NCBI RefSeq assembly: GCF_030272895.1
Contig: NZ_JALRNF010000069.1
Coordinates: 1 to 14,529 of the forward strand
Direction: 5' to 3'
DNA length: 14,529 bases
Origin: Pseudomonas sp. BGr12
Lineage (GTDB): Bacteria > Pseudomonadota > Gammaproteobacteria > Pseudomonadales > Pseudomonadaceae
The notes under the pieces are model-generated. The model was not told where the DNA came from. It was given only the letters and a program-made list of their open reading frames with translations, and searched no databases. This document shows, piece by piece, positions 1,246-14,373 of the stretch. The number at the start of each line of letters is the position of its first letter. The first letter of the stretch is position 1. The position numbers were made by a program, and so were the translations under genes.

Positions 1246-2313
1246 ATGTTCTTGAGAAACGCCTGGTACGCCGCCGCCTGGGACACCGAAGTGAAGCAGG
1301 CCCTGCATGCGACCACCCTGCTTGGCGAAGCCATCGTTCTCTACCGCAAGGCCGATGGCGTCGTCGTTGCCCTGGAAGATGCCTGCCCGCACCGCAAGCT
1401 GCCGCTGTCCATGGGCCGCTTGCATGGCGATGTGGTCGAGTGCGGTTACCACGGCCTGACCTTCGATGGCAGTGGCGCCTGCGTAAAGGCCGCGTGTGTG
1501 TCGCGTATCCCGCAAGCGGCGAAGGTGCGCAGCTACCCGGTGGCGGAACGCTATGGCCTGGTCTGGCTGTGGATGGGTGATGCGGCCCTGGCCGACCCGG
1601 CCAGGCTCCTCGACATTCCCGAGTGGAACGATCCGGCTTGGGGGGTGAACCGTGGCGACTCGATGACCATCGACTGCAACTACCTGTACATGACCGACAA
1701 CCTGCTCGACCCGTCCCACGTCGCCTGGGTCCACCAGAGCAGCTTCGGCACCACGGCCTGTGAGTCCGAGCCGTTGCAGACCCTGGTCAACGACGATGGC
1801 GTGGTGGTCTCGCGCTGGCTGTACGACATCGAGGTAGCGCCGTTCTACCAGCAGTACCTGAAGTTCGCCGGCCGCGCTGATCGCCTGCAGTACTACGAGG
1901 TGCGCTACCCGGCCCACGCGATCATCAAGGGCATCCATTCCCCGGCGGGCACCGGCGGTGAAGGCGCCGCGGCGCATGAGCAGGCCTTCGTCATGGACTC
2001 CTACAACTTCATGACCCCGGTCGACGAGAACCGCACCCGTTACTACTGGTTCCAGCTGCGCAACTTCGACCCGGCCGACGAAGAAGTGTCGCGCCGCTTC
2101 GCCGTCGATGTGCGCCGGGCCTTCGAGGAAGACCGGGTGGTGCTCGCCGCCGTGCACGCCGGCATGAAGCACCGCCAGAGCGCCAACATTGATCTTGCCA
2201 TCGACTCGGGACCGCTGCGCTTTCGCCGGGGCATGGAGCGCCTGATCCGCGAAGAACAGGACGCCGCCACCGCCCGCGCACTCAATACCATCGAGGTCAA
2301 GGCTCATGCTTGA
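1246..2313 (+). CDS. VanA-like Rieske [2Fe-2S] non-heme iron oxygenase, catalytic subunit
   Basis: A 355-residue oxygenase of the length and domain plan of the vanillate O-demethylase VanA group. The N-terminal Rieske domain (about residues 3-110) has C47-P-H49 and C66-G-Y-H69 as cluster ligands. The C-terminal catalytic domain carries D155-x2-H158-x4-H163, giving the bridging Asp and two of the three mononuclear iron ligands. D296 in FEEDRVVL is the likely third. Enzymes of this group use O2 and electrons from a partner reductase to demethylate O-methyl or N-methyl groups or to hydroxylate; the substrate here cannot be read. The start is supported by GAGGAG nine bases upstream. The reductase gene overlaps the last 8 bases, so translation is probably coupled. 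Being first in an operon with an amino-acid importer and a lyase argues against vanillate as substrate. Confidence 0.92.
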   Translation: MFLRNAWYAAAWDTEVKQALHATTLLGEAIVLYRKADGVVVALEDACPHRKLPLSMGRLHGDVVECGYHGLTFDGSGACVKAACVSRIPQAAKVRSYPVAERYGLVWLWMGDAALADPARLLDIPEWNDPAWGVNRGDSMTIDCNYLYMTDNLLDPSHVAWVHQSSFGTTACESEPLQTLVNDDGVVVSRWLYDIEVAPFYQQYLKFAGRADRLQYYEVRYPAHAIIKGIHSPAGTGGEGAAAHEQAFVMDSYNFMTPVDENRTRYYWFQLRNFDPADEEVSRRFAVDVRRAFEEDRVVLAAVHAGMKHRQSANIDLAIDSGPLRFRRGMERLIREEQDAATARALNTIEVKAHA

Positions 2314-3418
2314 CGCCATTCCCGCCAGCAAGGGCTTCGCGCGCTTCCAGGTGACCGGCAAGGTGCGCGAAAGCGCCTCGATCACCTCGCTGGTGCTGGA
2401 GCCTGCCGCCCACACCGGACATGTCGAGTTCCGCCCGGGGCAGTTCATCGTCGTGCGCATCCCCCAGGCCGAAGGTGCCCAGGTGTTAAGGGCCTACAGC
2501 CTGTCCAGCGACCCGGATGACCATGCCCGATTGCGCATCTCGGTAAAGCACGAGCTGCCGCCAGCGCACTTGCCTGACCTGCCGGCCGGGCTGGGTTCGA
2601 GCTTTTTGCACGAGCGCGTGGAGGTAGGCGGGCAGTTGGAGGTCGCCGGTCCTTCCGGCACCTTCGTCCTGGATGAAAGCAGCGAACGGCCGGTGCTGTT
2701 GTTCAGCGGCGGCGTGGGCCTGACGCCGATGGTCAGCATGCTGCATCGCCTGGCGACCCGCTCGACGCGCCCGGTGTACTTCATCCATGCCTGCGAGAAC
2801 GGCGCTGTGCATGCCTTGCGCGACGAGGTGCTGGCGCTGGCGGCCCGGCGTGCGGGGATCCATGTGCATTTCTGCTACCGCACGCCAACCCGGGATGACC
2901 TGGACAACGGCCACCACCACAGCAGCGGCCTGGTCAACCGGCAAACCCTGCAGGCGCTGCTGCCACTGGACGACTACGACGCCTACCTGTGCGGGCCACG
3001 GCCGTTCATGCAGGCCAACTGGCGCCTGCTGCGCAGCCTTGGCATCGACAAGGAGCGGATCCGCTACGAGTTTTTCGGTCCGGCCACGCTGCTGGACGAA
3101 GACAAGGACGAGGCACCCGCCGCACCAGCGCTACCGGCTCCCCAGGCCGACGCCGCGCTGACCGTGTGTTTCGAACCGGGCGGTCAGACCCTGGCCTGGG
3201 ATGACGCCTGCCCCTCGCTGCTCGACTGCGCCGAACGCGCAGGCCTGACGCCGCCGTTCAGCTGCCGGGCCGGGCTGTGCAACGCCTGCCTGTCACCGCT
3301 GCTCAGCGGCACGGTGGAGTACCGCGAGCCGCCGCTGATGATGCCTGAGCCTGGCCAGGTGCTGTTGTGCTGCGCACGGCCGACCTCTGCGGTGGTCGTG
3401 GCGCTGGAAAACTCATAG
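2306..3418 (+). CDS. Rieske oxygenase reductase: FAD/NAD(P)H domain plus C-terminal [2Fe-2S] ferredoxin
   Basis: A 370-residue electron-transfer partner that passes electrons from NAD(P)H to the oxygenase encoded just upstream. The ferredoxin-reductase FAD domain (about 13-120) shows RAYS at 62-65. The NAD-binding domain (about 128-260) has GGVGLTPM at 135-142 and CGP at 229-231. After an Ala/Pro-rich linker (about 264-284) comes a plant-type ferredoxin with C320-x4-C325-x2-C328 and a final ligand at C355 or C356. The domain order matches VanB and GbcB-type reductases; the length and the YEFFGP segment are closer to the GbcB/flavohaemoglobin-reductase-like forms than to the roughly 317-residue VanB. 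The start codon lies within the oxygenase stop region (8-base overlap), which indicates a dedicated pair. The exact electron donor (NADH or NADPH) is not resolved. Confidence 0.92.
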   Translation: MLDAIPASKGFARFQVTGKVRESASITSLVLEPAAHTGHVEFRPGQFIVVRIPQAEGAQVLRAYSLSSDPDDHARLRISVKHELPPAHLPDLPAGLGSSFLHERVEVGGQLEVAGPSGTFVLDESSERPVLLFSGGVGLTPMVSMLHRLATRSTRPVYFIHACENGAVHALRDEVLALAARRAGIHVHFCYRTPTRDDLDNGHHHSSGLVNRQTLQALLPLDDYDAYLCGPRPFMQANWRLLRSLGIDKERIRYEFFGPATLLDEDKDEAPAAPALPAPQADAALTVCFEPGGQTLAWDDACPSLLDCAERAGLTPPFSCRAGLCNACLSPLLSGTVEYREPPLMMPEPGQVLLCCARPTSAVVVALENS

Positions 3419-3493: not shown

Positions 3494-4345
3494 ATGAAGA
3501 ACAAGAAAATCGCATTCGCCGCCTGCTCGCTACTGATGACCCTCGCCAGTGTTTCGCTGACCACCCAGGCCAAGGAGTGGCACAGCATCCAGATCGCCAC
3601 CGAAGGCGTCTACGAACCCTGGAACCGCACACTGCCGGATGGCTCCTTCGACGGCTTCGAGCCGCAGATGGCCAAGGTGCTCTGCGAGCGCATGAAAATC
3701 GAGTGCAAACTCGTCGCCCAGGACTGGGACGGCCTGATTCCGGGCCTCAAGGCCGGCAAGTTCGATGTCATCATGGATGCCCTGGCGATCAGCGCCGAGC
3801 GGCGCAAGGTCATCGATTTCTCCCGCCCCTATACCGACGCCCCGGCCACCTTCATTGCCCAACAGTCCAGCGGCATCGACCTGGGCACAGGCAGCCTGGT
3901 GTTGCGCGGCGACCCGGCCCAGGACACCCCGGTCGTTGAAGACTTGCGCAACCGCCTCAAGGGCAAGTTGATCGGCATCGTCTCCGGCACTGTGTACAGC
4001 GGCTTCATCCGCGAGCAGTTCGGCCAGGTGGCGACCATTCGCGAATACAAGACCCCGCCGGAGCCGTTGATGGACCTGAAGAACGGCCGCGTCGACGTGG
4101 TGTTCGAAGACTACGGCTTTCTCGCCGGCGAACTGCAGCGCGCCGGCAGTAACGGCCTGGTGCTGGTGGGGCCGGCGATCAGCGGGCCGATCTGGGGTGA
4201 GGGCCAGGGCTTCGGCATCCGCCAGGGTGAGCCGGAGCTCAAGGCCAAACTGGACGCCGCGATCGCGTCGATGATCGCTGACGGCACCATCAGCGAACTG
4301 AGCCACAAATGGTTCCGGCACGACTTCACGCCGCCCAACCAATAA
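3494..4345 (+). CDS. ABC importer periplasmic binding protein, histidine/opine family (family 3)
   Basis: A 283-residue solute-binding protein. A Sec signal peptide is visible: KNKK, a hydrophobic stretch, then TQA at 24-26 before the likely cleavage. The mature part begins like HisJ/OccT/NocT proteins, with IATEGVYEPWN and PDGSFDGFE followed by LVAQDWDGLIPGLKAGKFD and the ISAERRKVIDFSRPY segment. This is the bacterial extracellular solute-binding family 3, which binds polar or basic amino acids and opines. It would capture the substrate of this operon in the periplasm for the two permeases encoded next. GGAGA at 3482-3486 lies 7 bases before the ATG. The 75-base gap after the reductase shows nothing else clear. 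The HisJ/opine similarity supports a substrate with an amino-acid head group, perhaps imidazole-bearing, but does not fix it. Confidence 0.93.
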   Translation: MKNKKIAFAACSLLMTLASVSLTTQAKEWHSIQIATEGVYEPWNRTLPDGSFDGFEPQMAKVLCERMKIECKLVAQDWDGLIPGLKAGKFDVIMDALAISAERRKVIDFSRPYTDAPATFIAQQSSGIDLGTGSLVLRGDPAQDTPVVEDLRNRLKGKLIGIVSGTVYSGFIREQFGQVATIREYKTPPEPLMDLKNGRVDVVFEDYGFLAGELQRAGSNGLVLVGPAISGPIWGEGQGFGIRQGEPELKAKLDAAIASMIADGTISELSHKWFRHDFTPPNQ

Positions 4346-4358
4346 CCGGCAGGACAGT

Positions 4359-4410
4359 CCGGCGTCATCGCTGACGCCGGGTGCTGACGCGACGGCCCGC
4401 TGCGGGCCGT
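4359..4410 (+). promoter_or_regulatory. Two tandem hairpins between binding protein and permease genes
   Basis: Two strong stem-loops sit in the 98-base gap after the binding-protein stop codon. The first is a perfect 9-bp stem, CCGGCGTCA (4359-4367) and TGACGCCGG (4372-4380), with loop TCGC. The second is an 8-bp stem, ACGGCCCG (4392-4399) and CGGGCCGT (4403-4410), with loop CTG. Neither is followed by a T tract, so they are not intrinsic terminators. In Salmonella and E. coli a hairpin in the hisJ-hisQ gap keeps binding-protein mRNA in excess over permease mRNA. I infer the same role here. Confidence 0.65.
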
Positions 4411-4443
4411 GCGCTCACTGACATGTTTAGGGTGGGACACGAC

Positions 4444-5148
4444 GTGATCGATCTGATTGGTTTTGGCGCCAACGGCTGGGGCAGTGTGCTGCTCATGGCG
4501 GCGCTGATGACAGTGCTGGTGACCGTGGCGGCGATGCTGGTAGGCGCCGTGCTCGGGGCCCTGGTGGCCGCGGCCAGGCTGCACCACAACGGGCTGCTGC
4601 GGATGATCGGCGAGACCTATACCACGGTGTTTCGTGGCATACCGGAACTGCTGGTGATCTACCTCTTCTATTACGGCGGCTCGGCGCTGGTGAGCAGTGT
4701 CGGCAAGCTGTTCGGAGCCGACGGTTTTATCAGCCTGCCGGCGTTCCTGGTCGGCGCCCTGGCGGTGGGGGTGGTGTCCGGCGCCTACCAGGCCGAGGTG
4801 TTCCGAGGGGCATTCCAGTCGGTGGCCCGTAGCGAGCTGGAGGCGGCCAGGGCCATCGGCATGCCGCTGATGCTGCGCTTTCGCAGGATCATCGCCCCGC
4901 AGATCCTGCGCTTCGCCTTGCCCGGCATGGGCGGCGTCTGGCAGATCAGCCTGAAGGACTCGGCGCTGATCTCGGTCACAGGGCTGGTCGAACTGATGCG
5001 CGCCAGCCGCGTGGCGGCCTCGTCCACCGGCCAGTTCGTGCTGTTCTTCGTCACCGGCTGCACGCTGTACCTGGTGCTGACGGGCTTCTCCAACCTGGTC
5101 TTCTCCCGCGCCGAACTGCGCGTGGGCCGAACCTTGCGCCGTAGCTGA
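4444..5148 (+). CDS. ABC importer permease, HisQ/OccQ type
   Basis: A 234-residue inner-membrane permease of the polar amino acid family (HisQ/OccQ). Several hydrophobic segments are visible, for example LLMAALMTVLVTVAAMLVGA near the N terminus, LLVIYLFYYGG, and a C-terminal FVLFFVTGCTLYLVLTG. The cytoplasmic EAA loop that docks to the ATPase reads SELEAARAIGMPLMLRFRR. I chose the GTG at 4444 because GGTGGGA lies just upstream and the protein then starts IDLIGFGANGWG, like other family members. An in-frame ATG at 4423 and a GTG at 4381 would add 7 or 21 residues; the first lacks a ribosome site and the second sits at the end of the first hairpin. It would pair with the next permease to form the channel. 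Confidence 0.91.
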   Translation: MIDLIGFGANGWGSVLLMAALMTVLVTVAAMLVGAVLGALVAAARLHHNGLLRMIGETYTTVFRGIPELLVIYLFYYGGSALVSSVGKLFGADGFISLPAFLVGALAVGVVSGAYQAEVFRGAFQSVARSELEAARAIGMPLMLRFRRIIAPQILRFALPGMGGVWQISLKDSALISVTGLVELMRASRVAASSTGQFVLFFVTGCTLYLVLTGFSNLVFSRAELRVGRTLRRS

Positions 5149-5162
5149 ACAGGGGACTGAGC

Positions 5163-5900
5163 ATGACGATAGATACTGCATTTTTGTTCGACACCTTGCT
5201 GCAACTGCTGCGCGCCTTGCCGACGACCCTGCTGCTGTTCGCTGCCTCGGTCGCCCTCGGCACGCTGCTGGCACTGCTGATCGTGTGGCTGCGCACCTGC
5301 CAGGTGGCCGTGCTGCGGCACCTGGCGCGGGGCTACATCTTCTTGTTCCGCGGCTCGCCGCTGCTGATCCAGATGTTCCTGCTCTATTACGGGCTGAGCC
5401 AGTTCCCCGAGGTGCGCCAGAGCCCGTTCTGGCCGGTGCTGCGCGAGCCGCTCAGCTGTGCGGTGATCGCCTTGGCACTGTGCACCGCCGGCTACATGGC
5501 CGAGATCTTCCGCGGCGGCCTGCAGGCGGTGCCGGCGCAGCAGATCGAGGCCGCCAGGGCCGCGGGCATGTCCGGCGGGCTGCTGGCGCGGCGGATCATC
5601 ATCCCCATCGCACTACGCAGCTGCCTGCCGGCCTATTCGACGGAAATCATCCTGATGATGAAGGCCACCTCGCTGGCGAGCCTGGTCACGGTCTATGAGG
5701 TGTCCGGCGTGGCCCAGCGGATCATCGCCGAGACCTACCGCACGCTTGAGGTGTTCCTCTGCGCCGCCCTGGTCTACCTGGTGCTGAACTTCCTGATCGT
5801 CCGCACGCTGACGCTGGTCGAGCGCAGGCTGTCGCCAAGGCAACCCGCCACCGCGAGTCCGACAACAAAAAAGTACGCATTGAGCGCACCAAGAGGGTAG
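5163..5900 (+). CDS. ABC importer permease, HisM/OccM type
   Basis: A 245-residue second permease of the polar amino acid ABC importer. Transmembrane segments include [20 protein letters not shown] near the N terminus and [17 protein letters not shown] near the C terminus. The family-typical [20 protein letters not shown] is present, and the EAA loop reads [19 protein letters not shown]. The [15 protein letters not shown] segment is characteristic of HisM and GlnP relatives. AGGGG lies about 8 bases before the ATG, 14 bases after the previous stop. The hydrophilic tail past residue 225 ([13 protein letters not shown]) is somewhat long and may be cytoplasmic. With the preceding permease it would form a heterodimeric channel served by the ATPase that follows four bases later. 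Confidence 0.92.
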
Positions 5901-5904
5901 TGGC

Positions 5905-6681
5905 ATGGCTACAGGCAATGATCCGGTCCTGCAGGTAAAGCACCTGCGCAAGTCATTCGGCAACCTGGAGGTGCTCAAGGGCATCTCGCTGGAGGCCCAC
6001 GAAGGGGATGTGGTGTCGATCCTCGGCGCCAGTGGCTCGGGCAAGAGTACCTTCCTGCGCTGCATCAACCTGCTGGAAACCCCCGATGCCGGCGAAATCC
6101 ACGTCGCCGGCGAACAGCTGGCGCTCAAGCGCGGCGGCCAGCAAGGCCTGGTGGCGGCCGACCGGCGCCAGCTCGATCGCCTGCGCCCGCAGCTGGGCAT
6201 GGTGTTCCAGAGCTTCGGCCTGTGGTCGCACATGACGGTGCTGCAGAACGTCATCGAAGGCCCGCTGCACGTGCAAAAGCGCCCCCGTACCGAGTGTATC
6301 GACGAGGCCGAGGCGCTGCTGGAGCGGGTCGGCATGGCCGACAAGCGCAATCACTACCCGGCCTTTCTCTCCGGTGGCCAGCAACAACGGGTGGCCATCG
6401 CCCGCACCCTGGCCATGCGCCCGCGGGTGATCCTGTTCGACGAGCCCACCTCGGCCCTCGACCCGGAGCTGGTCGGCGAAGTGCTCAAAGTCATGCGCTC
6501 GCTGGCCGAGGAGGGCCGCACCATGCTGGTGGTCACCCATGAAATGGGCTTTGCCCGCAATGTCTCGAACCGCGTGGTGTTCATGCACCAGGGCCTGATC
6601 GAGTCCCAGGGCACGCCGCAGGAAATGTTCGGCGAGCAGCATTGCGAGCGCTTCAGCCGGTTCATCCTCAGCCACGCCTGA
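5905..6681 (+). CDS. ABC importer ATP-binding subunit, HisP/OccP type
   Basis: A 258-residue ATPase that powers the importer from the cytoplasmic face. All nucleotide-binding motifs are intact: Walker [11 protein letters not shown]-loop [12 protein letters not shown], signature LSGGQQQR, Walker [13 protein letters not shown], and the switch His in VVTHEMGFA. Length and motif wording match HisP/OccP/GlnQ ATPases of polar amino acid importers. The start lies four bases after the second permease stop, with GAGG inside the end of that gene acting as ribosome site, so the two are tightly coupled. No regulatory extension is present at the C terminus. The set of binding protein, two permeases and ATPase is therefore complete. 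Confidence 0.94.
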
Positions 6682-6773: not shown

Positions 6774-8321
6774 ATGCCCATTCATCCGCAAGACATTCGC
6801 TCTGTTGTCCTGGACGACGCCAAGCCGTCCATCGAAGCCTTTATCGCGGTGGCCCGCTATGGCGCGAAGGTGAGTTTTTCCGACGCCTACCGCGCCCGGG
6901 TCGGCCGCTCGCGCCGGCTGGTCGAGCGCTTTCTCGACGAGAACCGCCTGGTCTACGGCGTGACCACCGGTTTTGGCGACAACGTCCGCCATGTCATCTC
7001 GCCCGAAGACGCCCAGACCCTGCAGGTCAACATCGTCCGTTCCCACGCCGTGTCGGTGGGCGAGCCGCTGAACCGCGAGCAGGTCCGCGCCGTGCAGTTG
7101 ATGATCCTGGTCAGCCTGGGCAAGGGCTTCTCCGGGGTGCGCATGGAACTGCTCGAACAGATCGCCGGCCTGCTCAACAACGACGTGGTGCCGTTCGCTC
7201 CCGGCGAGGGCTCGGTGGGCTACCTGGGCCCTGAAGGCCACCTGGCGCTGGTGCTGATCGGCGAGGGCAAGGCCAGCGTCGCTGGCGGCGAGTGGATCGA
7301 TGGCGCCAGTGCACTGCGCCAGGTCGGCATGCAGCCGATCACCCTGCAGTGCAAGGAAGGCCTGGCCATGCTCAACGGCACCACCTCGGTCACCGCCATC
7401 GCCACCCTGGCCCAGTACAACGCCAACCAGGCGGCCCGGGTCGCGGACGTTGCCGCGGCCCTGTCGCTGGAAGTGCTCAAGGGCACCATCCGCGCCTTCG
7501 ATGCCCGCTACCACTCGGTCAAGGCCCATGCCGAGCAGGCGCAGACCGCGCGTACCATCAAGCGTCTGCTGAACGACAGTCAATTGATCGAAGACAACAT
7601 CGACTACCGTCTGCAGGACACTTACAGCCTGCGCGCCATCCCACAGGTACACGGCGCCTCGAAGCAGTTCATTGCCTACGCCCAGGCCTGCATCGACAAC
7701 GAGATCGGCTCGTCCGGCGACAACCCGGTGATCTACCCACTGAGCGACGAGGACGGCATCGCCATCTCCGGTGCCAACTTCGACGGCTCGTACATCGGCA
7801 TGGCCGCCGACACCCTGTGCAACGCCATGACCAACCTGGCGAAGATCTCCGAGCGGCGCACCGATCGCATGGTCAACTCGCACTTCAGCGAAATGCCGGC
7901 GTTCCTGGTGCGCAACCCCGGGCTGAACAACGGCTACATGATCATCCAGTACACCGCAGCCGGCCTGCTCGGCGAGATGAAGGTGCTGTCCCATCCTTCG
8001 ACCATCGACAGCGTGTCCACTTGCGGCAACCAGGAAGACCCGGTGAGCTTTGCCTTCAACGCGGCCATGAAGGCCTACCAGGTCTCGCGCAAGCTGGAGT
8101 CGGTGCTGGCCATCGAGCTGCTGGTCGGCTGCCAGGCCCTGGACTTCCACGAGGTGGACAAGGCCTCCAGTGCCACCCGCGCGCTGTACCAACTGGTGCG
8201 CAGCCGCGTGCCGGTGGCCGATGAAGACCGTGCCTTCTATCCCGACATCATCGCGGTCACCGAGCAACTGCGCTCGGGCCAGGTGCTGGCCACCGTCGAC
8301 CAGGTGCTGGCCAATCAGTGA
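6774..8321 (+). CDS. Histidine ammonia-lyase-fold enzyme lacking the MIO triad, ergothionase-like
   Basis: A 515-residue member of the HAL/PAL superfamily, normal length. Conserved framework: Y61 in YGVTTGFG, SH at 90-91 (the Ser-His pair typical of histidine lyases), EGLAMLNGT near 195-203, QDTYSLR at 281-287, SGDNP, SGANFDGS, SERR, and NQED at 419-422. The diagnostic GSVGASGDLAPLAH is missing. Residues 146-156 read GSVGYLGPEGH, so Ala-Ser-Gly, which cyclises into the MIO electrophile, cannot form, and about three residues are deleted. Ergothionase, a MIO-independent HAL relative that removes trimethylamine, is the closest precedent I know. I infer elimination from a betaine-type aromatic amino acid, possibly hercynine or ergothioneine. 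A catalytically dead homologue is the alternative, but the retained active-site residues argue against it. The ATG at 6774 follows a GAGAGAG run; upstream in-frame codons lack family similarity. Confidence 0.85.
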   Translation: MPIHPQDIRSVVLDDAKPSIEAFIAVARYGAKVSFSDAYRARVGRSRRLVERFLDENRLVYGVTTGFGDNVRHVISPEDAQTLQVNIVRSHAVSVGEPLNREQVRAVQLMILVSLGKGFSGVRMELLEQIAGLLNNDVVPFAPGEGSVGYLGPEGHLALVLIGEGKASVAGGEWIDGASALRQVGMQPITLQCKEGLAMLNGTTSVTAIATLAQYNANQAARVADVAAALSLEVLKGTIRAFDARYHSVKAHAEQAQTARTIKRLLNDSQLIEDNIDYRLQDTYSLRAIPQVHGASKQFIAYAQACIDNEIGSSGDNPVIYPLSDEDGIAISGANFDGSYIGMAADTLCNAMTNLAKISERRTDRMVNSHFSEMPAFLVRNPGLNNGYMIIQYTAAGLLGEMKVLSHPSTIDSVSTCGNQEDPVSFAFNAAMKAYQVSRKLESVLAIELLVGCQALDFHEVDKASSATRALYQLVRSRVPVADEDRAFYPDIIAVTEQLRSGQVLATVDQVLANQ

Positions 8322-8329
8322 ATGTGTCG

Positions 8330-10033
8330 TCAGGGGGAGGTGAGGGCTTGCGGCAGGTCAAGCTCAAGGCGCCAGGCCAGCGCTTCGCCATCCCCGCTGG
8401 CGACCGTCTGTGCGCTGGCCTGCAGCAGCAGTAACAGCCGCTGCAGGCTGGCATGGGCCCATTGCGCCGACGCATCGGCGAGGTCCGGCTCATGCCAGGG
8501 TGACAGTTCAAGGCACAGGCGCAGCAAGCCGCGTGGCTGCAGGTTGGTGGTCAACCGCAGGCTGATCCGGGGTGGCAGCGTGCCCAGGCGCAGGTAGCCG
8601 AACAGGCTCTCGAGCAACTGACGATAGTGGCGGGCATCGATCCAGGCGCTTTTCAGCGTGTGCAGGGCGGGCCCCAGGTCCAGCTGGCAGCCCTTGGCCT
8701 CCAGGTGCTGGCGCAAGGGGACAAGAATCCTTTCGGTCAGGGTACCGAGGTGGTGCGCCTCGGTAATGGTCTCTTGCCGGTGGGCATCCAGTGCCCACAA
8801 CTCGTCGACCCTGACCAGGCATTGGCGCATGCTGTCGATCTGCCCTACCAACTGCTGCGCGCCCGCGCCATCGAGGCTTTGTTGCATGACCGCCAGCAGT
8901 GCCTGCAGCTCCTGGCTGATGGCGGCCAGGGTCGAGCTTTTCAGATGACTTTCGAAGCGTGCCTCGGCGCCTTCGTGACGCAATCTGGCCAGCATGCTGT
9001 CGCGCTCGGTGAGGTCACGCATGCCGCCGAGCATGGCCACCAGTTGCCCGGCCTCGTCGCGAAAGGGCGTACACCAGCCATACATGGCAGTCGGCACCCC
9101 CAGGTACTCGACGACCGCTTCGAAAATCACGGGTTCTTCCTGGCGCACTGATTGCTTGAAGCGCATCTGCGAGCGTACACGCACGTGTGGCGGCAACCAC
9201 TTGGCTTGCTCCAGCGTGGTGCCACGAATGACTTCGAAGCTTTCGCCGACCAATGCCAGGTAGCGGCGGTTGCACATCAACAGCCGGCCTTCCAGGTCGC
9301 GTACGAACATCGGGTAGGGCGCCGCATCGAGCAGCCCGCGCAGCAGGCCGTATTCACGCAGCAATTGGGGATCGGTGGGCGCCCCCAACGTGCGGGCACC
9401 ATCCTCGCCGGCCACCAGGCCGTGGCTGCGGGCTACTTCCAGCAACTGGAAGTCGTTGCCGACATTGAGCTTCTGGTGCAGGCGGGCCTTGTAGGTGCTG
9501 ACAGTCTTGTAGCTCAGGCTCAACTGCTCGGCGATGTCCTTGTTGTTCAGGCCCTGGCTCAGCATCTGCAACACCGTGAGCTCGCGCCCGGACAGCTGGG
9601 CCAGCTCGCTGTCGACTTCGCTGCGCGGGCCCTGGGCCTCCTGGCGGGTGGCTTCGCGGGGGAAGTAGCTGCGCCCGTGGCTGACCGCCTGCACGGCTCG
9701 CTCGAGTTCGGCGACCGCATCGGTCTTGCAGACATAGGCGTCGGCGCCGGCCTGCAGCGAGCGGGCGGCGTACAGGCCGGCTTCCTGGACGCTGTAGACC
9801 AGCAACTTGAGCCCTGCATGGCTGGCCCGCAGCCGACGCAGCAGGTCCAGGCCGCCCAGGCGCGGCACCAGCAGTTCGAGGATCACCAGTTCCGGGTGCA
9901 GCTGGCGGCATTGCAGCAAGGCGTCCTGGCCATTGTCGACCTCGGCCAGGACCTGATGGCCCGCACGTTCGAGCACGGCGCGCAGGCCGTCGCGAACGAT
10001 AGGCAGCTGATCCACGACCAGCACGGTGCTCAT
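8330..10033 (-). CDS. Atypical regulator: degenerate receiver - LuxR HTH - PAS - pseudo-histidine-kinase
   Basis: A 567-residue regulator. Residues 1-118 are a CheY-like receiver (VLVVDQLPIVRDG, S81, K103), but the phospho-acceptor position reads VILELLVP, giving E53 instead of Asp, and the second acidic residue of the pair is Q9. Residues 143-206 are a LuxR/GerE HTH (LSGRELTVLQML, NKDIAEQLSLSYKTVSTYKARL). Residues 228-345 form a PAS domain. Residues 360-567 resemble a histidine kinase core in which the H-box reads AISQELQALL with Q374 for the phospho-His. No N-box, DxGxG or GxGLG motif is recognisable. The ATG at 10033 has GGGAC upstream; an in-frame ATG at 10129 would add 32 residues unlike a receiver. 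It is divergent from the autotransporter gene and probably controls it. It converges on the lyase gene with 8 bases between stop codons. Confidence 0.87.
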   Translation of the reverse strand: MSTVLVVDQLPIVRDGLRAVLERAGHQVLAEVDNGQDALLQCRQLHPELVILELLVPRLGGLDLLRRLRASHAGLKLLVYSVQEAGLYAARSLQAGADAYVCKTDAVAELERAVQAVSHGRSYFPREATRQEAQGPRSEVDSELAQLSGRELTVLQMLSQGLNNKDIAEQLSLSYKTVSTYKARLHQKLNVGNDFQLLEVARSHGLVAGEDGARTLGAPTDPQLLREYGLLRGLLDAAPYPMFVRDLEGRLLMCNRRYLALVGESFEVIRGTTLEQAKWLPPHVRVRSQMRFKQSVRQEEPVIFEAVVEYLGVPTAMYGWCTPFRDEAGQLVAMLGGMRDLTERDSMLARLRHEGAEARFESHLKSSTLAAISQELQALLAVMQQSLDGAGAQQLVGQIDSMRQCLVRVDELWALDAHRQETITEAHHLGTLTERILVPLRQHLEAKGCQLDLGPALHTLKSAWIDARHYRQLLESLFGYLRLGTLPPRISLRLTTNLQPRGLLRLCLELSPWHEPDLADASAQWAHASLQRLLLLLQASAQTVASGDGEALAWRLELDLPQALTSP

Positions 10034-10191
10034 GGGCGTGTCCCGTTGCGTCCCTTTCCGTCCCCAAGCATAGACCAGGGGCCCGGGACGGGAATCACTC
10101 CTACAAGCGGGTGCAAGTTGCTCCGACATTCACGGTAAGCCCCCGCGCGCAGACTGCAGGCACTCCACTTCCAGTGCCTGCGAGGCCCTCC
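10034..10191. promoter_or_regulatory. Divergent promoter region between pseudo-kinase regulator and autotransporter
   Basis: This 158-base gap between two divergent start codons must contain both promoters. Visible elements are the odd palindrome GCAAGTTGC at 10113-10121, a possible site for a LuxR-type HTH protein, and the 9-bp hairpin at 10156-10181 next to the autotransporter ribosome site. No convincing sigma-70 -35/-10 pair stands out. Control of both genes by the LuxR-type regulator is inferred from arrangement. Confidence 0.5.
10156..10185 (+). promoter_or_regulatory. Hairpin abutting the autotransporter Shine-Dalgarno
   Basis: GCAGGCACT (10156-10164) and AGTGCCTGC (10173-10181) form a perfect 9-bp stem with loop CCACTTCC. 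The right arm ends exactly at GAGG (10182-10185), the ribosome site six bases before the ATG at 10192. Such a stem could limit ribosome access or serve as a protein or small-RNA target. It could instead be a DNA operator. The symmetry is seen directly; the role is inferred. Confidence 0.55.
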
Positions 10192-13100
10192 ATGAACAGT
10201 TTCAAACGCATTCCCGCCCCTCATCCGAAGTTCCAGCGCACCTGCCTGGGCCGCACCATCGGCCTGCTGCTGGCCGGGGTGTTCAGCCTCAATGCCCTGG
10301 AGGCCGAGGCTGAGAACAACGCGGTCGACCCACCCGCTGAAGATTTCGACCCGCCCTCGACAGCGGCGGCCATCGTTGCGCCGTCTTACCTGGACGTCGC
10401 CCTGCAGGCCAGCACAGACGCCCCACGGGTGTTCGCCAGCCGCCTGCTGGGGGCGCCGGCGCCGATCATCGTCAATAGCGCCGACGGCATCGGCATTGCC
10501 AGCGCCGGCGCCCATGTCGACGCCAGCGTCAACCTGGGTGCGGCCCGCACCATCGGCGTGCTGGCCCAGGCGGGCAGCAGCGTGGGCTTCGAGCGCGGCA
10601 GCGTCAGCTCCAGCGCCTTGACCGCCACCAACGCCAGTGGCCAGACCGGCCTGCTGGCACGTGACAACAGTCAACTGAGCGGCACCGGGGTGAGCGTCAG
10701 CCTGGTGCCCAAGGCCAGCAACGGCACCGCCGTGACCGCCAGCAACCTGATCGGTGTTGCGGCCAGGACCGGCGGCCAGGTCAGCCTGCACGACAGCACA
10801 GTCACCCTGGGCGGTGGCGTCAACGGCCTGAGCAACCATGGCCTGGTGGCCAGTGGCGCCGGCAGCAGCATCGACTTTGCCGGTGGCAGCGTCAGTACTC
10901 TGTCCAAGGGCTCGATCGGCGCACTGGCCGAGGCCGGTGGCCATATCAGCCTGAGCCAGGGCAGTGCCATCAGCGTGACCGGCGCCAGCAGTTCCACCAC
11001 CGCCAGTCATGGCCTTAAGGCCACAGGCAGTGGCAGCCGGATCGATGCCAGCGATATCAGCGTGGCCAGCAGCGGCGTTGCGGCCAGCGGTGCGCGGGCC
11101 GAGGATAGCGCGCACATCCAGCTCGATCGCAGCACCTTCACCAGCACCGGCGCCGCCACCAGTACCAGCAGCACCGCGGTGCTGCATGCCCAGGGCGGTG
11201 CCAGCATTGCCGCCGACGCGGTGCAGGCCGGCGCCACTGGCAACTACGTGGGCGGCGTACGTGCCGAAGGCAGCGACAGCCGGATCAGTTTCAGTAATGG
11301 CAGCCTGGAGGTGAAAGGCGCCGGCAGCGCCACCGACTACGCCTCGGCCGCGCGGGCCATGAACGGCGGGGCGATCAGCATCGAGGGCAGTGAGTTGTCG
11401 TCCCAGGGCACCTACAGCCACGGTGTTTCCGTCGAGGGCAGCGGCTCCCGGGCCGATGTCGACAGCAGCCGCATCGATGTCACCGGCAACCGTGCCCATG
11501 GCGTCTACGTCACCGCAGGTGCCAGCGCCGGGGTCAGCGACAGCCATATCAGCCTCGGTGCCGTCGCCGGTGCCGCCGGTCCCTGGGGCGTCGGTGCGCT
11601 GGTGGAGGGCAGTGGCTCGCACCTGCAACTGGACGACAGCGAAGTGCGCACCACCCAGAAAACCAGCTTTGGCGTACGGGCCCTTGCTGGCGCCCAGCTG
11701 ACGATCAACAACGGCCTGATCGACACCCAGGGCAACTATTCGACGGGCCTGAGCGCCGGCAGCGCCACGGTGCTGGCGCGCAACCTGACGGTGCACACCT
11801 CGGGCAACGACAACGCCATGGGCGTGCTGGCCGACGCCGGTTCCACCATCGACCTGTTCGGCGGTTCGGTCACCACCACCGGCAATGGCTCGCCGGTGCC
11901 GTCCAACCTGACCTTTCCCCATGCCCTGGCGTCGCGCAATGCCGGCGCCCAGCTCAACGTTCACGGCACCAGTGTGCTGACCACCGGCAGCCAGGCCTAC
12001 GGCGCGGCAGTGGACGACGGCGGCAGCATGCTGCTGGACGGTGTGTCGCTCCAGACCCAAGGGCAATACGCCATTGGCCTGTACGCCGGCATCGGCACCC
12101 TCAAGCCCGGCCAGGTGAGCCTGGTCGCCCGTAACGTCAGTGTCGAGACCTTGGGCGACCAGGCCGCCGGCGCCCTGGTCAGCCGCCGCTACCAGGCACC
12201 TGAAGCAACCCTGGAGCTGATCGACTCGACACTGACCACCCACGGCCAACTGTCCCACGGCCTGCAGGCGGAATCCGGCGCACGACTGAGTGCCAGCAAC
12301 AGCGCGGTCAACACCCTGGGCACCGCCGCCCTGGGCGCCCTGGCCAACAACCGTGCCAGCGTCCTGCTCGACGGCGTCGGGGTGAACACCGCCGGCGACC
12401 TGGCCCATGCCGCCGTGGCCAAGAACGGCGGCGAGCTGCAGGCTGGTTCCAGCGTCATCAACGCCAGCGGCGGCCAGGCTTCGGCCCTGTACGTACAAGG
12501 CACCGAGGCCCTGGTGGGCAAGGCGCTCGTCGACAACAGCGTACTGCGCAACCGTGATGGCGCCACCATCGCCAGCGCCGGCGTGGCGGACATTAGCCTG
12601 GTCGACACCATCGTCGGTGGCAGCGGCCAGTGGCTGAACGTGGACAGCGCGGTGGCCAGCGATGGCAGCAGCATCCCCGATATGGGCACCGGCCAGTGGC
12701 AAGGGGTCGGCAACTCGCTGGCCGCCACCGGCCGGGCCACCCTCGACGTTTCCGGCTCGGTGCTCAGTGGCTCGGCACACACCGCCGAGGGCAGCAGCTC
12801 CACGGTGAGCCTGCATGACGCCAGCCTGTGGAACCTGACCGGCGAATCGAACCTTGGCAGTCTGAGCAACGACGCCAGCCTGATCGACTTCAGTGCGCCC
12901 CTGGGTGGCAACTTCAAGCACCTCACGGTCAACGACTACCATGGCGCCAACGGCACCCTGGCCCTGAACACCTACCTGTACAGCGACGGCTCGCCGTCGG
13001 ACAAACTGGTGGTGGACGGTGGCAAGGCCGACGGCAGCAGCAACCTGTTGATCCGCAACGCCGGCGGCCCCGGCGCCCTGACCCAGGGCAACGGCATCCT

Positions 13101-14373
13101 GGTGGTCGATGCGCAACATGGCGCCACCACCGATCCCGAGGCTTTCCGCCTGCTCAACCGGGTCAAGGCCGGCCCTTACGAATACAACCTGTACCGCGCA
13201 AGCCTCGATGGCAGCAACGGCGAAGCCTGGTACCTGCGCTCGACCGTCGATGCGGCACCGGTTGACCCCGTCGATCCGGTTGATCCGGTAATCCCGGTCA
13301 ATCCAGTCGATCCGCAAGATCCTGTCGCCCCGCTGGTTCCCGTGGTCGAGCAAGCGGTTGCCCCGGCTCGTCCGCAGGTGCCCAACTACCGTCCGGAAAC
13401 CTCCCTGTACCGTGCCTTGCCATCGATGCTGCTGAACTACAGCCGGGCCATGGTCGATACCCTGCACGAGCGCGTCGGCGAAGAACGCCGGCTGGCCACT
13501 GACCCGCTGCCTGACCAGGCGCTGGAACAATACGGCCCGTCCCTGGGCTGGGGTCGCCTGATCCTGCGCAAGGGCGAGGACGAACTGGGCGAGGGCGCCC
13601 GCTACGACTACCGCCTGCAGGCCTTCCAGGTCGGTGCCGACCTCTATCGCAACGAAGACACCGACGGCAGCACCGACCAGGCCGGCCTGTCACTGAACGT
13701 TGGGCGCATTGCCGGCAGCGTCGACCACACCAACGGCAGCAGTGCCGGCGATGATCTGGTCCGCGCCTATGGCATCGGCGGCTACTGGACCCACTTCGGC
13801 CCCGAAGGCTGGTACCTCGATGGTGTGCTGCAGTTCAATCGCTTCGACATCAAGGCCAGCCCCAACGACATGGACGCGCTCAAGACCCGTGGCCGTGGGG
13901 TGACGGCTTCGCTGGAAGGCGGCTACCCGATGCACCTGAACAAGGACAAGACCCTGCACATCGAGCCGCAGGCCCAGGTGATCGTCACCAGGGTCAAGGT
14001 CGACGACAGCCATGATGACGCATCGGACGTGCGTTTCGAAGACGTCGACTCGCTCACCGGCCGCCTGGGTGTACGCATAGACAAGGACTGGTTCCGCGAA
14101 GACGCCAAGGGCAAGGTGCACCGCACCAATGTCTGGGTTCGCCCAAGCGTCTGGCATGAGTTCAAGGGCCAGGCCAAGACCGAGTTCTCCTCGGCCAATG
14201 GCTACATCCCCTTTGGCACGGACATGAGCGGCACCTGGGGCGAACTGAACCTGGGCGTCGACTACCAGGTCGATGAGCGCACCACGGTGACGGGCTCGCT
14301 CGGTTACCAGAAGGCATTCAACAAGGACAGCCGCAGCTATGAAGGCATGATCGGTATCAAGGTCAAGTTCTGA
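10192..14373 (+). CDS. Type Va autotransporter, pertactin-like adhesin with beta-helix passenger
   Basis: A 1393-residue secreted surface protein. Residues 1-40 form a long basic, then hydrophobic signal peptide (RTIGLLLAGVFSLNALEAEA). The passenger, to about residue 885, is a run of roughly two dozen degenerate repeats such as GVYVTAGASAGVSDSHISL and GVLADAGSTIDLFGGSVTT, as in a right-handed beta-helix. No Cys is seen after the signal. An autochaperone-like segment (about 887-1020, including LIDFSAPLGGNFKHLTVNDY) precedes a Val-Asp-Pro linker (1023-1063). The C-terminal barrel (about 1117-1393) opens SLGWGRLILRKGEDELGEGA and ends IGIKVKF, with the terminal Phe used for outer-membrane assembly. 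No protease triad or other enzyme domain is recognisable, so adhesion or biofilm is the likely role. GAGG six bases upstream supports the ATG; the GTG at 10111 would spoil the signal peptide. Confidence 0.92.
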   Translation: MNSFKRIPAPHPKFQRTCLGRTIGLLLAGVFSLNALEAEAENNAVDPPAEDFDPPSTAAAIVAPSYLDVALQASTDAPRVFASRLLGAPAPIIVNSADGIGIASAGAHVDASVNLGAARTIGVLAQAGSSVGFERGSVSSSALTATNASGQTGLLARDNSQLSGTGVSVSLVPKASNGTAVTASNLIGVAARTGGQVSLHDSTVTLGGGVNGLSNHGLVASGAGSSIDFAGGSVSTLSKGSIGALAEAGGHISLSQGSAISVTGASSSTTASHGLKATGSGSRIDASDISVASSGVAASGARAEDSAHIQLDRSTFTSTGAATSTSSTAVLHAQGGASIAADAVQAGATGNYVGGVRAEGSDSRISFSNGSLEVKGAGSATDYASAARAMNGGAISIEGSELSSQGTYSHGVSVEGSGSRADVDSSRIDVTGNRAHGVYVTAGASAGVSDSHISLGAVAGAAGPWGVGALVEGSGSHLQLDDSEVRTTQKTSFGVRALAGAQLTINNGLIDTQGNYSTGLSAGSATVLARNLTVHTSGNDNAMGVLADAGSTIDLFGGSVTTTGNGSPVPSNLTFPHALASRNAGAQLNVHGTSVLTTGSQAYGAAVDDGGSMLLDGVSLQTQGQYAIGLYAGIGTLKPGQVSLVARNVSVETLGDQAAGALVSRRYQAPEATLELIDSTLTTHGQLSHGLQAESGARLSASNSAVNTLGTAALGALANNRASVLLDGVGVNTAGDLAHAAVAKNGGELQAGSSVINASGGQASALYVQGTEALVGKALVDNSVLRNRDGATIASAGVADISLVDTIVGGSGQWLNVDSAVASDGSSIPDMGTGQWQGVGNSLAATGRATLDVSGSVLSGSAHTAEGSSSTVSLHDASLWNLTGESNLGSLSNDASLIDFSAPLGGNFKHLTVNDYHGANGTLALNTYLYSDGSPSDKLVVDGGKADGSSNLLIRNAGGPGALTQGNGILVVDAQHGATTDPEAFRLLNRVKAGPYEYNLYRASLDGSNGEAWYLRSTVDAAPVDPVDPVDPVIPVNPVDPQDPVAPLVPVVEQAVAPARPQVPNYRPETSLYRALPSMLLNYSRAMVDTLHERVGEERRLATDPLPDQALEQYGPSLGWGRLILRKGEDELGEGARYDYRLQAFQVGADLYRNEDTDGSTDQAGLSLNVGRIAGSVDHTNGSSAGDDLVRAYGIGGYWTHFGPEGWYLDGVLQFNRFDIKASPNDMDALKTRGRGVTASLEGGYPMHLNKDKTLHIEPQAQVIVTRVKVDDSHDDASDVRFEDVDSLTGRLGVRIDKDWFREDAKGKVHRTNVWVRPSVWHEFKGQAKTEFSSANGYIPFGTDMSGTWGELNLGVDYQVDERTTVTGSLGYQKAFNKDSRSYEGMIGIKVKF
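13255..13350 (+). repeat. Val-Asp-Pro repeat linker within autotransporter
   Basis: Short direct repeats of GATCCGGT/GATCCGCA type encode VDPVDPVDPVIPVNPVDP and then more Pro/Val-rich sequence. The segment joins the autochaperone-like end of the passenger to the beta-barrel. Proline-rich spacers at this position are common in pertactin-type autotransporters. Short tandem units like these can change copy number by slippage, so the length may vary between strains. Confidence 0.7.

Follow-up and report, generated by a model that had tools for sequence, protein, structure and literature searches.

We predict, with a probability of about 0.5, that the gene at 6774 to 8321 of the window (the whole stretch of Pseudomonas sp. 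BGr12 DNA analysed here, 14,529 nucleotides) encodes a betaine lyase that works independently of the MIO cofactor, most likely converting hercynine to urocanate and trimethylamine and feeding the hut pathway. The substrate and the product are both predicted. Somewhat more tentatively, the gene may represent a widespread and misannotated branch of HutH in which MIO has been replaced by Tyr and whose members are now hercynine trimethylamine-lyases feeding the hut pathway, providing a bacterial sink for this betaine. The features of the lyase gene are:

6774 to 8321, + strand: MIO-less HAL/PAL-family lyase, 515 aa (PF00221, NCBIfam)
7209 to 7241, + strand: GSVGYLGPEGH loop replacing the MIO loop (codons 146-156)
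7221 to 7223, + strand: codon of Tyr150
7233 to 7235, + strand: codon of Glu154
7782 to 7784, + strand: codon of Asp337 (HutH His330 column)

The reading frame starts with ATG at 6774, its stop codon ends at 8321, and the 515 aa product belongs to PF00221 over profile positions 2-465 of 466 (542.5 bits, cut-off 27.3). It passes the cut-off of the NCBIfam PRK09367 subfamily (536.2 bits, cut-off 524) and scores 529.1 bits with the hutH equivalog, under the cut-off of 539.15. The list of matching solved chains is topped by proteins named histidine ammonia-lyase or probable histidine ammonia-lyase (304-357 bits). All of the superfamily signatures named in the original prediction (YGVTTGFG, SH, LNGT, QDTYSLR, SGDNP, SERR and NQED) are present, and the HutH pocket residues Tyr61, His91, Gln281, Arg287, Phe336 and Glu421 are kept.

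The GSVGYLGPEGH loop, which had been placed at 7207-7242 (right to within one codon), stands opposite GSVGASGDLAPLAH in HutH. In this alignment Tyr150 occupies the position of the triad Ala and is followed by a three-residue gap where Ser-Gly-Asp is absent; thus, no cyclisable Ala/Ser/Thr/Cys-Ser-Gly is found at the MIO site. With the Ala-Ser-Gly triad gone, MIO cannot form. The alignment bears out the earlier claim of a lost triad, with Tyr for Ala and three residues deleted, and we agree that ordinary HutH chemistry is not expected of an enzyme from which the triad is absent. Without MIO, a quaternary ammonium is a sensible leaving group, and the predicted chemistry is most reasonably read as elimination of a group that leaves more easily than ammonia, such as trimethylamine.

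The source genome encodes four PF00221 proteins: HutH (with ASG), an adjoining MIO-less HutH2, the window lyase and one further protein with ASG. An identity as ordinary HutH was rejected for the window lyase, given the missing triad and the separate, triad-bearing HutH. A histidine ammonia-lyase that manages without MIO would fit the greater similarity of the window lyase to HutH than to other families and its passing of the PRK09367 cut-off, but the same two observations, no triad and a triad-bearing HutH in the same genome, make this explanation very improbable.

The protein searches list the best 120 matches each, and the counts that follow describe near relatives, not the whole superfamily. 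In the first relative set (the query and the best 120 of 7772 matches, 121 proteins), GSV[GA]Y[LI] occurs at the loop in 120 proteins, with one lacking a match to the pattern. Among the 139 aligned rows from the best-120 listings, Tyr150 fills the MIO-Ala column in 138, residue 151 is Leu or Ile in all 139, and Glu154 is present in 138, the remaining row having Asp. Asp337 is found in 139 of the 139 window-type rows among the matches listed, and His in 14 HutH rows. Asn201 and Tyr284 are kept together in 97 of the 139 relatives among the matches listed, and ergothionase-like Ser and Leu stand at these sites in 22. Comparison of the window lyase with six Pseudomonas relatives gave dN/dS of 0.094-0.215. 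The near-invariance of Tyr150, Glu154 and Asp337 and the low dN/dS indicate a conserved, selected state.

A frameshift, already discounted in the original prediction, or a sequencing error was rejected on the loop pattern common to the relatives, on Tyr150 in 138 of 139 and on the low dN/dS. Loss of the cofactor-forming residues could also mark a catalytically dead protein, whether a relic or a regulatory paralogue. However, the remaining active-site residues are constrained in the 139 relatives among the matches listed, dN/dS is low, and the lyase gene is the last in a catabolic operon; we give this explanation hardly any weight.

Named sources among the matches listed include Pseudomonas, Rhizobium, Ensifer, Burkholderia, Paraburkholderia, Streptomyces and Bacilli. 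The lyase gene is an accessory one. At E 1e-150 it was found in 4 of 198 genomes sampled from the family, and one genome among the 198 that is marked as the same species is without a window-type lyase at this threshold. With a Burkholderia relative as query, only the window's own genome was matched among 369 genomes of the class (E 1e-130). Burkholderia HutC, used as a marker in a search without a positive control, had no match among the 369 class genomes. Plasmid records held no relative of the window lyase above 50.9% identity.

Upstream of the lyase gene, the window encodes the following features:

151 to 1089, - strand: divergent LysR-family regulator (PF03466, PF00126), present in 20 of 20 loci
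1127 to 1140, no strand assigned: conserved box AGTTTAGAAATACT between the LysR and Rieske genes, a possible regulator site
1246 to 2313, + strand: Rieske monooxygenase of VanA type, likely a demethylase (PF19112, PF00355)
2306 to 3418, + strand: Rieske reductase with FAD, NAD and 2Fe-2S domains (PF00970, PF00175, PF00111)
3494 to 4345, + strand: ABC substrate-binding protein, polar amino acid type (PF00497)
4381 to 5148, + strand: HisQ-like ABC permease (PF00528)
5163 to 5900, + strand: ArtM/HisM-like ABC permease (PF00528)
5905 to 6681, + strand: HisP-like ABC ATP-binding protein (PF00005)

The NCBIfam models nearest to the substrate-binding protein are for lysine/arginine/ornithine, all under cut-off, and the ATP-binding protein scores 330 bits with the HisP model, under its cut-off of 466. 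Among solved chains, 7qwt and dicamba O-demethylase (3gb4) score best with the Rieske oxygenase, and methylxanthine N-demethylases come lower in the list. We infer that the Rieske pair demethylates either a methylated compound resembling histidine or the released amine, setting free formaldehyde. Rieske relatives of 66-69% identity occur without the lyase in the five plasmid loci viewed, each with a LysR gene. Three of the five (L104, L106 and L107) carry histidine-type transporter genes; DUF2817 is annotated in L104 and L106, and L107 adds a HisC homologue and a class III formaldehyde dehydrogenase, both over cut-off. These lyase-less clusters of Rieske, reductase, LysR and transporter genes perhaps serve methylhistidine catabolism. 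They also lend some credence to the idea that the lyase acts together with the Rieske demethylase on another N-substituted or ring-methylated histidine, and not on plain hercynine. This is unlikely, however, as 16 of the 20 lyase loci are without the Rieske pair. Counting against hercynine, in turn, is that the lyase reaction alone does not account for the Rieske pair in the window operon.

In the window and most relatives, the interval between LysR and the first operon gene contains a box AGTTTAGAAAT(A/T)CT; in most of the Rieske-less loci, where the lyase gene comes first, a similar box lies between LysR and the lyase gene. When the box was scored as a palindrome in single loci with two mismatches, 13-24 of 200 shuffles did as well; thus, it is the shared sequence that is notable, not any one site. 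Neither a sigma-70-like promoter nor a terminator was found in 1060-1300, and no Rfam families were found in the window. Convergent with the lyase gene is a gene for a response regulator with LuxR-type DNA-binding and PAS domains (8330-10129, - strand), and an autotransporter of 1420 aa with AC_1 and beta-barrel domains is encoded at 10111-14373 (+ strand). The first bases of the autotransporter gene overlap the neighbouring ORF as called, so its start is probably further in.

We compared twenty Pseudomonas loci with a window-type lyase. The LysR gene is upstream on the opposite strand in all twenty, and transporter genes are present in those loci that extend far enough. The gene order of the window, with Rieske and reductase genes, is seen in four (L001, L002, L003 and L020). 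HutU adjoins the lyase in five (L005, L006, L007, L012 and L016, the last cut by a contig end), and a HutH2-type gene adjoins it in L004 and L011. Among the 16 Rieske-less loci, six have neither HutU nor HutH2 beside the lyase (L008, L009, L010, L015, L018 and L019) and three have neighbour content that is not judgeable (L013, L014 and L017). Both genes are absent from the window operon, and HutU is absent from its Rieske-bearing relatives (4 of 20 loci). Within the stretch examined, HutH2 was not found in the hut regions (L094 and L095) of the L004 and L011 genomes.

In four genomes, the HutU beside the lyase and the HutU of the same genome's hut operon have DNA identities of 99.5, 99.0, 97.7 and 84.2%, and HutU copies from different genomes have 84.8-94.2%. 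Three of the pairs (L012/L090, L007/L091 and L005/L092) are 97.7-99.5% alike within the genome, far above the between-genome values, a pattern such as gene conversion or repeated recent duplication would leave. The lyase-side HutU of L005 scores 1016 bits with the hutU model and 690 and 706 bits with the thiourocanate models, both under cut-off. The models for thiourocanate hydratase and S-methyl-thiourocanate hydratase exceed cut-off in none of the 23 genome entries with a window-type lyase (probably 22 genomes; G141 and G930 agree in their coordinates and probably represent one assembly). Four of the 23 entries are also without HutU at the threshold, and absence there therefore says little.

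Given a HutU that stands beside the lyase in five of the twenty loci and is near-identical to the hut copy in three of the four genomes compared, and no thiourocanate hydratase over cut-off in the 23 entries, the product of the window lyase is probably urocanate. Urocanate as the product, together with a quaternary ammonium leaving group, points to hercynine and not to ergothioneine as the substrate. An ergothionase, which would release trimethylamine from ergothioneine or its sulfonate while the Rieske pair handles the sulfur group, is rather unlikely in the light of the canonical HutU genes that adjoin the lyase in relatives and of the lack of any thiourocanate hydratase over cut-off in the 23 entries. 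Two further observations support hercynine: a histidine-type transporter is encoded in the window operon, and the clusters with thiourocanate hydratase carry another type of lyase (4 of 5 loci). Counting against it, any urocanate made by the window operon would have to reach the hut operon on another contig, and one of the four HutU pairs is divergent (84.2%).

Hercynine (histidine betaine) is made by fungi and cyanobacteria. In the route that we propose, L-hercynine (N-alpha-trimethyl-L-histidine) would be imported by the histidine-type ABC transporter of the operon, the lyase would eliminate trimethylamine from it to yield urocanate, and the urocanate would be broken down by canonical HutU and the remaining hut enzymes. 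His91 would bind the imidazole and Arg287 the carboxylate, roles that we presume to hold as in the HutH literature for this pocket. A general base would take the beta proton, and trimethylammonium would depart without an electrophile; MIO would be dispensable because trimethylammonium is a good leaving group in its own right. Where MIO would stand, Tyr150 may contribute to an aromatic cradle around the quaternary ammonium, and Asp337 and Glu154 may provide charge stabilisation or acid/base catalysis.

The GSxGY[LI] lesion is shared by the HutH2 of Pseudomonas hut operons, by a Sinorhizobium meliloti hutH that neighbours HutXWV-like genes and by an Agrobacterium lyase adjoining CoA genes. Plasmid genes of Burkholderia, Erwinia and Priestia with the annotation hutH carry it as well. 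The HutH2 of the window's own genome (C75; L038:11366-12895, - strand) lies beside the normal HutH, has the loop GSVGYLTHMAH and scores 537 bits with the hutH model (cut-off 539). The S. meliloti gene, on pSymB (L089:2730-9377), is accompanied by HutXWV-like betaine transporter genes, hutC and hutF. A third MIO-less type, with the loop GSVGYISHMAH, is encoded at L002:15119-21147 downstream of an enolase-superfamily gene and adjoining a ferredoxin-type reductase; the same genome holds a window-type operon. On an Agrobacterium tumefaciens plasmid (L035:7965-12430), a MIO-less lyase with the loop GSVGYLIATSH is followed by genes for a CoA-transferase, a 3-hydroxyacyl-CoA dehydrogenase and an enoyl-CoA hydratase, perhaps another betaine catabolic route. 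Given these CoA-gene neighbours, the wider group need not make urocanate. This distant relative could suggest that the window lyase itself acts on a different aromatic betaine (e.g., tryptophan or tyrosine betaine), but the HutH pocket, including His91, is kept and related loci contain HutU and HutH2 genes, so we consider such a substrate quite improbable.

Window-type genes are labelled histidine ammonia-lyase although they are without MIO-forming residues. Thus, for this branch both the automatic names and the predicted pathways are probably wrong. PA5093 is presumably annotated as an ammonia-lyase-like gene. It is named hutG in the passages of PMC12772324 on the hut genes of P. aeruginosa, and because this label differs from the annotation it may deserve a check.

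No description of a hercynine lyase was found in the open-access papers searched. Histidine betaine vanished from biocrust soil water, yet was taken up by none of the isolates, according to the passages of PMC4595634 that deal with it. Ergothionase and its use are covered in parts of PMC13405746 and PMC11089744, and ergothioneine biology in parts of PMC7653990; the passages of PMC9002059 on the evolution of MIO enzymes make no mention of ergothionase. If hercynine is indeed the substrate, the window type would be a distinct enzyme, with a lesion unlike that of the solved ergothionase, and a sink for a betaine common in fungi and cyanobacteria. It would then offer a route for the disappearance of histidine betaine, another bacterial source of trimethylamine, and a comparison of two different ways to lose the same protein-derived cofactor.

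The ergothionase of Burkholderia sp. HME13 (BAM63550) is described in passages of PMC13405746 and PMC11089744 as a trimethylamine lyase resembling HAL/PAL/TAL. Ergothioneine as the substrate of the window lyase is favoured by ergothionase being the known MIO-less precedent, and by its report from Burkholderia together with the Burkholderia members of the window clade. It is also favoured by the Ser and Leu at the HutH Asn195/Tyr280 sites in 22 of 139 relatives among the matches listed, and by Glu at the Asp337 column in 118 of 120 rows of the ergothionase clade (best 120 listed). In the four lyases from thiourocanate clusters, however, this column has Leu, so not every MIO-less lyase has an acid here. 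Among the 120 ergothionase-type matches listed, 118 have the loop Glu, 112 Ser195 and 118 Leu278. The Treponema denticola ergothionase, its sequence (6s7j) taken from alignments, scores 155.8 bits to the window lyase.

The NCBIfam thiourocanate hydratase model is over cut-off in 5 of 378 Pseudomonadota genomes. Four of these five loci (L118-L121) have a HAL-like lyase within 20 kb, with the loop GS[IM]GC-ADI, and the fifth (L122) has no lyase within 20 kb. The neighbours of the L118 lyase include thiohydantoin desulfurase, ErtD and ErtE, which all exceed the cut-off of curated ergothioneine-pathway models. These lyases, from Pseudomonadota outside the window's class, are probably the true ergothionases there. 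They form one clade with the Treponema type (support 100/100, the overlong L121 ORF having been trimmed at its N-terminus), and the window type falls outside it. The window lyase has neither the GE-GD or GC-AD loop of this clade nor its Ser195 and Leu278, and the solved-type ergothionase family was rejected for it. "Ergothionase" as a name appears among none of the matches listed, most of which bear no source name. Ergothionase, invoked in the original prediction as the known precedent, thus stands as an analogue, but not as the family of the window lyase, given a different lesion, residues and clade.

The main tree had 61 hand-chosen rows: 20 of the 121 window-type proteins and L034, 13 of the 120 ergothionase-type matches listed, 12 other MIO-less proteins, 14 HutH and one further ASG row. 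With the loop columns included, a single branch separates the GSxGY[LI] rows from all others (97/89); with these columns excluded it is still present at lower support (44/78). In a 65-row tree without the loop columns no branch separates them. A single clade of GSxGY[LI] and Treponema-type rows was not rejected (p-AU 0.118), and for a single clade of GSxGY[LI] rows and the thiourocanate-cluster lyases p-AU was 0.057. The different loop lesions suggest that MIO may have been lost independently in the window type and the ergothionase type.

The window lyase resembles HutH (1b8f and variants, 6v6h, 7tqr; TIGR01225, PRK09367) in fold family and in the imidazole and carboxylate pocket residues, but differs from it in having Tyr and a three-residue deletion for Ala-Ser-Gly, Asp at the His330 column and a hutH equivalog score under cut-off. 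With Pseudomonas HutH2 and the rhizobial hutH beside HutXWV it has the GSVGY[LI] lesion in common; however, these are about 36-38% identical to it and have Tyr280 changed to Leu and Phe329 to Pro or Ala. The T. denticola ergothionase (6s7j, 6s7q) is likewise of the HAL family, lacks the MIO triad and has an acidic residue beside the Phe329 column. Unlike the window lyase, its loop is SSIGE-GDITTLSH (ASG to E-G), one residue shorter than in HutH where that of the window lyase is three shorter, and it has Ser/Leu at the Asn195/Tyr280 columns where the window lyase keeps Asn/Tyr. The L118-L121 lyases are also of the HAL family without the triad, but are set apart by the GS[IM]GC-ADI loop, the Treponema-type clade and, for L118, ergothioneine-pathway neighbours. 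The HME13 enzyme is known here by its description, and it is from the Treponema type that the window lyase is distinguished by sequence. MIO-free lyases of the HAL family are already known from ergothionase, and the window-type clade differs from that precedent in its lesion, in its active-site residues and in its urocanate context.
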